Shown piece after piece: positions 7,428 through 18,124 of a DNA stretch of 64,000 nucleotides; position 1 is the stretch's first letter; each line of letters opens with the position of its first letter. The position numbers were made by a program, and so were the translations under genes. Below the pieces are notes generated by a model. That model was given only the letters and a program-made list of their open reading frames with translations, ran no database searches and was not told where the DNA came from. Location of the stretch: contig NZ_SAXU01000001.1 in assembly GCF_008016455.1 (NCBI RefSeq), positions 2,252,423 to 2,316,422 of the forward strand, written 5' to 3'. This DNA comes from Brachyspira aalborgi (GTDB taxonomy: Bacteria > Spirochaetota > Brachyspiria > Brachyspirales > Brachyspiraceae).

Positions 7428-8819
7428 ATGAACGAATACGATTTAAAAGACACTATAGTCGCTCTTTCAACTCCATTCTCAAAAAGCGCATTGGCTGTAG
7501 TTAGAATGTCGGGCGGTAAATCTTTAGAAATCGCTTCAAAAATTTGTTTTTATGCAAATAATGAAAATAATAATATAAAAAATTTTGAACATAGAAAAAG
7601 TTATTACGCGTTAATAAAAGACGAAAATAATAATCCTATAGACGAGTTAATTTTACTTACAACATTATCTCCGAATACTTTTACCACCGAAGATACGGTT
7701 GAATTTATTTGTCATGGAAGTATTGTAGTTATAGAATCTTTGATTAATTTGATAATAAGAAACGGAGCGCGAGCTGCAAATAAAGGAGAGTTTACTTATA
7801 GAGCTTATATAAATGGAAGAATTGGAATAAGCGAAGCCGAAGCCGTGCATGATTTGATAGATTCAAATAATAAACTTATGGCGGAAGCGAGCGTTTATAA
7901 AATGAGAGGAAGATTAACAAGAGAGATAGACAAATTAAGAGAAAATATAAAAAACTCTCTTATGTTAGTTTATGGCGAGATTGATTTTCCCGAAGACGAA
8001 ACCGAAAATTTTTCCTACGATAAACTTATTAATAATTTTTATAATATAAAAAAAGATATAGAAAATATTTTAAGTAATTCAAAAAAAGTAGAAAATCTTA
8101 TAAACGGAATAAAAGTAGCGATTTTGGGAAAAGTAAACGCGGGCAAAAGTAGTATTTTTAATATGATTTTAGAAAAAGACAGAGCAATAGTTTCGTCAGT
8201 TGCGGGAACTACGAGAGATTTTTTGAGCGAAAATATTTATATAGAAAATATTCCTTTTTATTTAATGGATACTGCGGGATTTCACAAAGAAACAAATAAC
8301 GATATTGAAATTGAAGGAATAGAGAGAGCGAAAAAATGCGCTTACGAATCAAATATAATAATCGCGGTTTTTGACGGAAGCGATAAAGCGAGCGAAGACG
8401 ATATTAATTTAATTAAATTTTTAGAAACATTAAAAGATAAAGAAATAATTTATTTGATTAATAAAAGCGATATAAAAAATAATTTTGATTATAATCTTAA
8501 AAATTCTATTATCAATATAAGCGCTAAAACCGAAGAAGGAAAAGAAGAATTATTTTTTGCCTTGAAAAATTATATTAAAGATAGCGATATTCAAATATTT
8601 AATAAAGAAAGCTATGTTAATAATAGAGAGAGAGGATATTTGGAAAACGGAATTAAACAACTTGATATATGCATTGAAAAAGCGAAGCAAAATTATTCTT
8701 TAGACGAAGTAGCCGAAGAGATGAATATTTTAAATAATATTTTAGGAAATGTAAGCGGAAAGATAGACGCCGAAGAAGTTATAAACGAAATATTTAAAAA
8801 TTTTTGTATAGGAAAATAA
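7428..8819 (+). CDS. mnmE: tRNA modification GTPase MnmE (TrmE)
   Basis: MnmE, with MnmG, installs the cmnm5 group on U34 of certain tRNAs. The 463-aa protein is full length: an N-terminal folate-binding domain starting with DTIVALSTPFSKSALAVVR, a G domain with P-loop GKVNAGKSS near 234-242, DTAG near 281 and NKSD near 344, and the invariant C-terminal FCIGK. The 3' end of the gene is duplicated at 18058-18124, on the far side of the lsr cluster. Its functional partner mnmG now lies 9.3 kb away on the opposite strand. Confidence 0.97.
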   Translation: MNEYDLKDTIVALSTPFSKSALAVVRMSGGKSLEIASKICFYANNENNNIKNFEHRKSYYALIKDENNNPIDELILLTTLSPNTFTTEDTVEFICHGSIVVIESLINLIIRNGARAANKGEFTYRAYINGRIGISEAEAVHDLIDSNNKLMAEASVYKMRGRLTREIDKLRENIKNSLMLVYGEIDFPEDETENFSYDKLINNFYNIKKDIENILSNSKKVENLINGIKVAILGKVNAGKSSIFNMILEKDRAIVSSVAGTTRDFLSENIYIENIPFYLMDTAGFHKETNNDIEIEGIERAKKCAYESNIIIAVFDGSDKASEDDINLIKFLETLKDKEIIYLINKSDIKNNFDYNLKNSIINISAKTEEGKEELFFALKNYIKDSDIQIFNKESYVNNRERGYLENGIKQLDICIEKAKQNYSLDEVAEEMNILNNILGNVSGKIDAEEVINEIFKNFCIGK

Positions 8820-8821
8820 TT
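8755..8821 (+). repeat. Left copy of 67-bp direct repeat = 3' end of mnmE (candidate attachment site)
   Basis: The last 65 bp of mnmE plus two bases match 18058-18124 with four mismatches by eye. This copy belongs to the intact gene. The pair brackets the whole lsr cluster exactly, as expected for an island inserted at, or recombined into, the mnmE 3' end. Confidence 0.8.
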
Positions 8822-8852
8822 CTTAATAATAAAATTTAGAAATTTAATTTAT

Positions 8853-9800
8853 TTATAAATTCAATAAACTCTTTGCCAATTCAGAATCTATGATTATAGT
8901 ATTCAAATATTTTCCAATTAAAGCCGAATAAACCGCTTTTGATTTTACCAATCCCGAAGCTACTCCGACTACATTTTTTATCTTTTTCAAATCGGATAAT
9001 TTTGCTCCTATTATTCTGTTATTAATATCTATATCTAATTCTTTTCCGTTTATATCGTAATAATGAGCGCAAATATCTCCAATCGCTCCTTCGTTTTTTA
9101 TTTTATTTAATTCCTCTTCGCTTATATATCCCGTTTTATACAAACTGTTATTTTTTAATTCTACGCATCCTATTCCCACAAATGCAATATCTAAATTCGA
9201 TATTTTTTTAAGAATATTTTTTATCGTATTATCGTTCATTAAAGATTTTGCAATCTCTTTATTTCCAACTACCAAAGGAGCATGAATCATTAAACATTGA
9301 GAGTTCAATTTTTTAGATAAATATTGAGCGAGCAAAGGTCCGTCATAATTTTTATTTTCGTATCCTGTCGCTCCTATCATTTGTATAATATTTACTACAG
9401 AAGAGTTTTTAGTATTTAATTGTTCTATCATAGAAGATAAAGACTGCCCCCATGATATTCCAACATTTTTAACTTTATCTATTATATTTGAAAAATAATT
9501 TGCAGCGGCTATTCCAATTTCGGTAATAACTTCTTCTTCGGAATTATTTAAACATTCTATAACGATAGCTTCGTTTATATTAAATTTATTTATTATTTGT
9601 TTTTCTAATTCTTTATCTCTCCAAGGATATTTAATTTTAAAATCTACCAATGATAAATCTTTCGCTTCGGATATTAATTTTGAAATCGTAGGACGAGCTA
9701 TGGACATTAATTTAGAAATTTCTTCCTGATTCTTATTTTTTTTATAGTAAAGGAAAGCTATTTTTGCTATTTGGGCTATTTTTTTATTATCGTAATGCAT
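8853..9800 (-). CDS. lsrR: SorC/DeoR-family transcriptional regulator, probable LsrR
   Basis: A 315-aa regulator with an N-terminal helix-turn-helix (NQEEISKLMSIARPTISKLI, about 26-45) and a C-terminal SorC sugar-phosphate-binding domain containing VGISWGQSLSSMI and DIAFVGIG, then GVASGLVKSKAVYSALIGKY. It is divergently transcribed from a complete lsr operon, so it is the likely phospho-AI-2-responsive repressor. I use ATG 9800. A TATAAT at 9811-9816 with TTGATT at 9833-9838 (minus strand) puts the transcript start only a few bases before this ATG, so the mRNA may be nearly leaderless. Function is inferred from family and neighbours. Confidence 0.85.
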   Translation of the reverse strand: MHYDNKKIAQIAKIAFLYYKKNKNQEEISKLMSIARPTISKLISEAKDLSLVDFKIKYPWRDKELEKQIINKFNINEAIVIECLNNSEEEVITEIGIAAANYFSNIIDKVKNVGISWGQSLSSMIEQLNTKNSSVVNIIQMIGATGYENKNYDGPLLAQYLSKKLNSQCLMIHAPLVVGNKEIAKSLMNDNTIKNILKKISNLDIAFVGIGCVELKNNSLYKTGYISEEELNKIKNEGAIGDICAHYYDINGKELDIDINNRIIGAKLSDLKKIKNVVGVASGLVKSKAVYSALIGKYLNTIIIDSELAKSLLNL

Positions 9801-9896
9801 TATGTTCAATATTATAGCATTGTTTAAATAAAAATCAATAATAGATATATATAAAATTATATTACAAAAATTAATTAAATTTTATTACAAAAATAC

Positions 9897-9925
9897 TTGA
9901 CAAATGTAATTATTTAGTATATACT
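9897..9925 (+). promoter_or_regulatory. Promoter of the lsr operon
   Basis: TTGACA (9897-9902), 17-bp spacer and TATACT (9920-9925). The -10 box is the left half of a 16-bp palindrome, so a bound regulator would block it. Confidence 0.75.
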
Positions 9926-17077: not shown

Positions 17078-17131
17078 AAATAAAGAATAATAAAAACAAT
17101 AAAAAAATAATTAAAAAAGAGGTAAACAAAA

Positions 17132-17494
17132 ATGAAAAAATTAAACGAATCAGAAATAGAATATAGGAATAATAATATATCTGGTCCTAAATATCTATTA
17201 AGAGGTCCTTATTGCGATGTCGGTTTGGTGATAATACAGCCAGGCGAAGATTTCAATACTCATTATCATCAGAATACGGAAGAAGATTTTTATACTTTGG
17301 AAGGAAAGGTTGATATTTATGTTGACGGAGAAAAAATCGTAATTTCCGAAGGCGATATTATACAATTGCCTCCACCGACTAAACATTATATAAAAAATAA
17401 TTACGATAAGCCTTGGAAAGCTTTATTCGTAAAAGCGCCTTTTCATGAAAAGGATAAAGTTAATGTTGATTGGCTTCCAGAAGAAGATAAATAA
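17132..17494 (+). CDS. Small single-domain cupin protein of the lsr cluster
   Basis: A 120-aa single beta-barrel cupin. The metal motifs are readable: HYHQNTEEDFYTLEG (about 44-58) and PPPTKHYIKN (about 82-91). It lies in line with lsrK (55-bp gap, own RBS GAGG). The cluster has no obvious LsrG (the ABM-fold isomerase that processes phospho-AI-2), so a role in isomerising or binding a phosphorylated AI-2 derivative is a reasonable guess. That is inference only; many small cupins act in other sugar pathways. Confidence 0.75.
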   Translation: MKKLNESEIEYRNNNISGPKYLLRGPYCDVGLVIIQPGEDFNTHYHQNTEEDFYTLEGKVDIYVDGEKIVISEGDIIQLPPPTKHYIKNNYDKPWKALFVKAPFHEKDKVNVDWLPEEDK

Positions 17495-17533
17495 AGACAA
17501 TAAATAATTTAAAAAATTAGGAGAATTTTAATT

Positions 17534-18034
17534 ATGAAAGCTTTAATATTAAGCGAAAATTTTTTTGAGGATTCTGAATTATTTTATCCTTATTTTAGAT
17601 TGATAGAAGAAGGTTATAAAGTTGATATAGCGGCTTTGAAAAAAGGAATTATATCGGGCGAATATTTCTTTAAGGTAAAAGCAAATTTGAGTCTTGACGA
17701 TGTTAATCCAAAAGATTATAAACTGCTTATTATACCTGGAGGAAGAGCGCCAGAATCTATAAGAGGAAATAAAAGCGTAAAGAAAATAATAAAATATTTT
17801 GTAGATAATTCTCTTCCAATAGGTGCGATATGTCATGGACAGCAAACTTTAATATCCGCTAATGTTTTGGAAAATAAAGACGCTACTTGTTATAGCGGAA
17901 TTATTGACGATTTGATTAACGCTAAAGCAAATTACAAAGATGAAAAAGTTGTGGTATGCGAAAATATAATAACTTCAAGATGTCCTGACGATTTGCCTTA
18001 TTTTATGAGAGAGATAATGAAAAAGATATTTTAA
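17534..18034 (+). CDS. DJ-1/PfpI-family protein
   Basis: A 166-aa class I glutamine amidotransferase-like protein of the DJ-1/PfpI family, which includes glyoxalase III, deglycases and proteases. Diagnostic features are LIIPGGRAPESIRGN and the nucleophile elbow GAICHGQQTL with the probable catalytic cysteine near residue 102. It is the last gene of the lsr cluster (39 bp after the cupin gene, RBS TTAGGAG) and ends 23 bp before the right copy of the mnmE repeat. A role in removing reactive dicarbonyls made during AI-2 metabolism is possible but unproven. Confidence 0.85.
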   Translation: MKALILSENFFEDSELFYPYFRLIEEGYKVDIAALKKGIISGEYFFKVKANLSLDDVNPKDYKLLIIPGGRAPESIRGNKSVKKIIKYFVDNSLPIGAICHGQQTLISANVLENKDATCYSGIIDDLINAKANYKDEKVVVCENIITSRCPDDLPYFMREIMKKIF

Positions 18035-18057
18035 AAAATTAATTTATTATTAATAAA

Positions 18058-18124
18058 GCGGAAAGATAGACGCGGAAGAAGTTATAAATGAAATATTTGA
18101 AAATTTTTGTATTGGAAAATAATT
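18058..18124 (+). pseudogene. Right copy of 67-bp direct repeat: fragment of mnmE 3' end
   Basis: The sequence encodes GKIDAEEVINEIFENFCIGK followed by a stop, the C-terminus of MnmE, but nothing upstream of it is mnmE. It matches 8755-8821 with four mismatches, so it is a diverged rather than a recent copy. It marks the right end of the presumed lsr island, 31 bp before the mnmG stop codon. Confidence 0.85.

Follow-up and report, generated by a model that had tools for sequence, protein, structure and literature searches.

An AI-2 uptake gene cluster between two copies of the mnmE 3′ end in a Brachyspira genome, compared with SGI1-type trmE islands

The 3′ end of mnmE (trmE/thdF) is the chromosomal attachment site of SGI1-type elements, and the gene end is restored on their integration. 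The lsr operon accounts for the import, phosphorylation and breakdown of AI-2. We have analysed a stretch of 64,000 nucleotides (the window) from a Brachyspira genome, in which an lsr cluster lies between an intact mnmE and a second copy of the mnmE end. For this genus, a gene transfer agent, VSH-1, is known (PMC2897892), extensive gene-order rearrangement has been described (PMC2897892, PMC3532143), and in B. pilosicoli homologous recombination equals mutation as a source of diversity (PMC8116685).

The locus resembles SGI1-type trmE islands in the gene end that is used, in the gene restored on one side and in the spare end on the other: the segment directly follows an mnmE (7428-8819, + strand) that is intact, as the earlier note had said, encoding 463 aa and ending in FCIGK, and the spare end is located at 18056-18124. 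It differs from them in being a 9.3 kb segment without int, xis or mobilisation genes, with an imperfect repeat of 67-69 bp, with a gene of the genus inside, and with no empty site or related island seen among the relatives.

The repeat had been described as a 67-bp match with four mismatches, and the pairwise comparison of both copies reproduced this exactly (63/67 identical bases between 8755-8821 and 18058-18124); the ungapped match extends to 8753-8821 and 18056-18124, with 65/69 identical. Both copies lie on the + strand and comprise the last 22 codons of mnmE, including the stop, plus TT; the left one is the 3′ end of the intact gene, and the right one is referred to below as the orphan. 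The upstream edge of the repeat is an exact 18-bp run, AAGCGGAAAGATAGACGC, and similarity breaks off abruptly upstream of it. In a search of the same genome the two copies gave E-values of 3.2e-29 and 8.3e-24, while the next-best match reached only 7.6e-5; the repeat is therefore not a chance event. A third comparable copy was not found in the whole genome (2.50 Mb, 8 contigs). Over the last 18 bp of the gene end (8802-8819 versus 18105-18122) 17 of 18 bases agree, and similarity runs 49 bp further upstream, so that the repeat is indeed longer than an 18-bp core.

The copies differ at four of 66 coding bases, three of which are synonymous third positions; at the fourth, mnmE encodes K and the orphan E. 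The nearest relative among the sampled genomes, B. catarrhinii Z12 (MnmE 89% identical), also has E at this position, and its mnmE end differs from the two copies at 11 and 10 bases. The doubling is thus younger than the split from B. catarrhinii, or the donor was closer than that species. As far as these small numbers go, the differences tend to favour a meeting of two alleles, that of the orphan being native; the shared E suggests that the orphan may be the native end of mnmE. DNA located 3′ of mnmE in B. catarrhinii had no significant similarity either to that after the orphan (p 0.38) or to that after the left copy (p 0.81), and comparison of flanks therefore does not prove which copy is native.

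The genes between the repeats follow the form of lsr operons seen in spirochaetes and Bacillota: a divergent lsrR is followed by lsrF, A, C, D, B, K and a cupin gene, in the same order as in the distant spirochaete G369, whereas identity to the genes of the latter is only 42-74%. Further differences are the native pfpI located 3′ of the cluster and a host genus in whose sampled genomes no LuxS was found. LsrF, a thiolase/aldolase (9978-10844; NF006081, 368 bits, cut-off 297), the AI-2 binding protein LsrB (14386-15456; NF011937, 532 bits, cut-off 384) and the AI-2 kinase LsrK (15524-17077; NF008187, 729 bits, cut-off 528), all encoded on the + strand, pass the curated NCBIfam cut-offs. The transporter ATPase LsrA (10861-12327, 531 bits versus 586) and the permeases LsrC (12327-13352, 280 versus 388) and LsrD (13352-14356, 307 versus 500), on the same strand, have the respective lsr model as their best match, yet remain below cut-off. 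The divergent gene (8853-9809, − strand) encodes an lsrR-like regulator of the SorC/DeoR family (PF04198, 1.6e-68), for which a DeoR model outranks the LsrR model (161 bits, cut-off 486); neither reaches its cut-off. No ABM-type LsrG gene was found in the cluster; its place is occupied by the cupin gene (17132-17494, + strand, PF07883), which holds the same position beside lsrK in spirochaetes G255 and G369 and on a Lacticaseibacillus plasmid. Outside the enterics, where LsrG holds this place, a cupin gene regularly accompanies lsrK. Altogether, 9978-17494 constitutes a near-complete AI-2 uptake operon.

The AI-2 cluster does not fill the whole interval between the repeats, as the earlier note had it: this description holds for 8853-17494 (lsrR, lsrFACDBK and cupin), but not for 17534-18034 (+ strand), where we identified pfpI (DJ-1/PfpI; TIGR01382 above cut-off), whose orthologues in 19 other Brachyspira are 77-80% identical to it. 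Its neighbours vary, and in none of the 15 relatives whose neighbourhoods were examined does it sit beside lsr, mnmE or mnmG. No pfpI was found by tblastn in the lsr loci of distant spirochaetes. By these comparisons pfpI is a Brachyspira gene and not lsr cargo, and DNA of native type extends to about 20 bp from the orphan.

The lsr cluster is present in one of the 26 sampled Brachyspira genomes, that of the window itself. A true LsrK is absent from the 25 others, which encode only FGGY-family relatives with up to ~30% identity over the whole protein; full-length MnmE is found in 24 other Brachyspira at 76-89% amino acid identity. With the orphan and its surroundings as query, no second mnmE end was found in relatives, the only strong match, if any, being their own mnmE end. 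We also compared each mnmE end with the 0.9-15 kb that follow it in 26 relatives from the genus and the family, one further relative having too little downstream sequence; nothing like the 67-bp match of the window (E 3e-25) was seen, the best being a 20-bp inverted match (2.5e-4). Since lsr is unique to one genome and a second mnmE end is missing from relatives, a species-specific insertion into the mnmE end, bounded by the repeats, seems the simplest reading. Of the proposed lsr island bracketed by a duplicated mnmE end, the insertion is therefore supported, the segment being absent here in relatives and lsr unique to the species among the sampled genomes, but the affiliation with SGI1-type elements is not.

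Gene mnmG does follow the right copy, after a gap of 31 bp, with the correction that it is convergent with the segment (18156-20015, − strand; TIGR00136, 832 bits). The suggestion that mnmE and mnmG were formerly adjacent is unsupported by the relatives, in which both genes, where located, are far apart or on different contigs. The neighbourhoods of mnmE and mnmG differ in every relative, and the genes located 3′ of mnmE in B. catarrhinii sit ~310 kb away in the genome of the window. As the two genes are not neighbours in relatives and the genus is known for rearrangement, the junction between mnmE and mnmG is special to this lineage, and the relatives provide no empty site. A search for empty sites across relatives, as had been advised, confirmed that the segment is absent from all of them but revealed no such site; without the mnmE-mnmG junction in relatives, this comparison is uninformative among the sampled genomes, in which the species is represented by this strain alone. 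The orphan together with the sequence 3′ of it (18081-18145) forms a strong A+T-rich hairpin (z −3.4 and −4.0). It is not conserved at the mnmE ends of relatives and was consequently left out as evidence; it may act as a transcription end between the convergent pfpI and mnmG.

How the segment came to lie between two mnmE ends can be explained in several ways, and a duplicated gene end around cargo does not by itself prove an attachment site. Integration could have been site-specific, carried out at the mnmE 3′ end by a tyrosine recombinase that has since disappeared or that worked in trans, the element bringing a replacement gene end. Such an event would account for the gene end restored at one side and displaced at the other, and for the 18 bp that are identical where the repeat begins. 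We nevertheless consider it unlikely. No integrase, excisionase or mobilisation gene was found between the repeats, where all nine genes are lsr genes, cupin and pfpI; the absence of an integrase had been stated before. Only two PF00589 (tyrosine recombinase) proteins are encoded in the genome, both with genus-wide counterparts and both looking like housekeeping Xer recombinases, and no PF00239 (serine recombinase/resolvase) protein was found. Moreover, the copies disagree at one base within the 18 bp that SGI1 uses, the native pfpI sits at the right edge of the segment, and neither a related island at mnmE nor a duplicated mnmE end was seen in relatives. Membership in the SGI1 type was rejected on the lack of a fitting integrase and of PF00239 proteins and on the 17/18 match of the terminal core. 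Homologous import, which the earlier note had offered as its own alternative, fits better. We tentatively prefer the view that an lsr-pfpI segment from a Brachyspira was imported through recombination in mnmE, which displaced the resident end, a reading to which we give somewhat less than an even chance. The segment would probably have arrived on DNA of another Brachyspira, via a gene transfer agent or another route, and would have carried an mnmE 3′ end of its own. This incoming end would have been joined to the resident gene through recombination in mnmE, creating the left copy, and a second junction inside the resident end would have orphaned its last 67 bp at the right. The Brachyspira donor, the transfer route and the direction of displacement are inferred. 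Import agrees with the absence of lsr and of a second mnmE end from 25 other Brachyspira, with the 4/66 divergence of the copies as compared to 11 and 10 for B. catarrhinii (a doubling recent relative to the split, or a close donor), with the E shared by the orphan and B. catarrhinii as opposed to K in the gene, with lsr codon usage and GC3 equal to those of the neighbourhood, with pfpI as a gene of the genus, and with the lack of a dedicated integrase. Three synonymous differences of four are what one expects of two ends that each evolved as part of a functional gene, but this is a weak argument: under a simple one-third model the chance probability is ~0.11. Also to be set against import are that neither donor nor empty site was found, that long residence could equally have led to amelioration, and that the second, non-homologous junction is an assumption. 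VSH-1 and homologous recombination in Brachyspira offer a likeness in composition-matched DNA joined at a homologous gene with no need for an element-borne enzyme; the difference is that here one of the junctions falls within a gene end that is duplicated, and that donor and agent are inferred.

Import is not needed at this step if the chromosome was rearranged in this lineage: breakage close to the end of mnmE would have brought a resident lsr-pfpI block next to that gene, and repair would have copied the last 67 bp into a direct repeat. The neighbourhoods of mnmE and mnmG that change from relative to relative, the ~310 kb displacement of the genes found after mnmE in B. catarrhinii, the wandering location of pfpI within the genus and the rearrangement reported for Brachyspira (PMC2897892, PMC3532143) all speak for this possibility; it requires, however, a copied gene end with later, mostly synonymous divergence at 4/67, and still a gain of lsr at some point, and we regard it as possible but on the improbable side. 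A larger, old duplication of mnmE, trimmed by deletion until only the orphan was left, which had been named earlier as grounds for refuting an island, is very improbable: similarity stops abruptly at 18056 with no more trace of upstream mnmE, the remainder is 94% identical, and no relative has a second mnmE end. A more far-reaching reading is a unit that has no integrase, or that is mobilised in trans through Xer or a gene transfer agent, and that spreads AI-2 uptake genes between Brachyspira strains by inserting at the mnmE 3′ end; we find this quite doubtful, but if true, it would make spirochaetes without luxS consumers of AI-2 in the gut. Our verdict is ordinary gene gain in a fluid genome, which left an informative scar, and a mobile island of SGI1 type is unsupported. 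The marked mnmE junction is of use here, as comparison of strains could separate import by recombination from true site-specific integration. The direct 67-bp repeat could, in turn, permit renewed loss of the segment by homologous recombination.

Composition of the cluster fits a Brachyspira donor or long residence: lsr GC3 is 0.220, against 0.220 in the neighbourhood, and the codon distance of lsr is reached by 15% of random gene sets. LsrK is deeply divergent: its best match (53% identity) comes from a different spirochaete family, and the grouping is moderately supported (88/88). No close lsr donor was found among 392 genomes of the phylum, in which this LsrK is the nearest; a search of plasmids yielded matches of at most 48%, and no close lsr relative was found in viral contigs and phage records. 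Our literature search found no paper naming both Brachyspira and lsrB, and the main text of the human-spirochetosis genome paper contains neither autoinducer nor lsr.

A search for LuxS gave no match in the 26 Brachyspira genomes; 5 of 14 genomes of the control set matched. With no LuxS found in the genus, the operon would take up AI-2 made by others, and uptake of AI-2 from other species is its probable role here. The host cell is possibly an AI-2 consumer or listener (eavesdropper) and not a maker. The locus records a dated and delimited acquisition of AI-2 uptake by a single gut spirochaete, in a genus otherwise without lsr, and without luxS, in the sampled genomes.

Other repeats are present in the window. 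A promoter-like unit, TTGAC-(about 19)-TATAAT, recurs six times in intergenic DNA at 29953-38001; between its boxes lies the palindrome GGAGTTAACTCC or one that varies little from it. The copies are near genes for an acetyltransferase, aldo/keto reductases, a cyclophilin-like protein, CMD, FGE/flavodoxin, flavodoxin and a LysR regulator; their layout resembles that of MerR-type promoters. A 95-nt direct repeat (34661-34755 and 37833-37927, 84% identical) comprises an orphan 5′ end of the LysR-type gene (36905-37903, − strand), located beyond the FGE/flavodoxin and DUF4405 genes. It represents a second gene-end duplication around other genes in the window.
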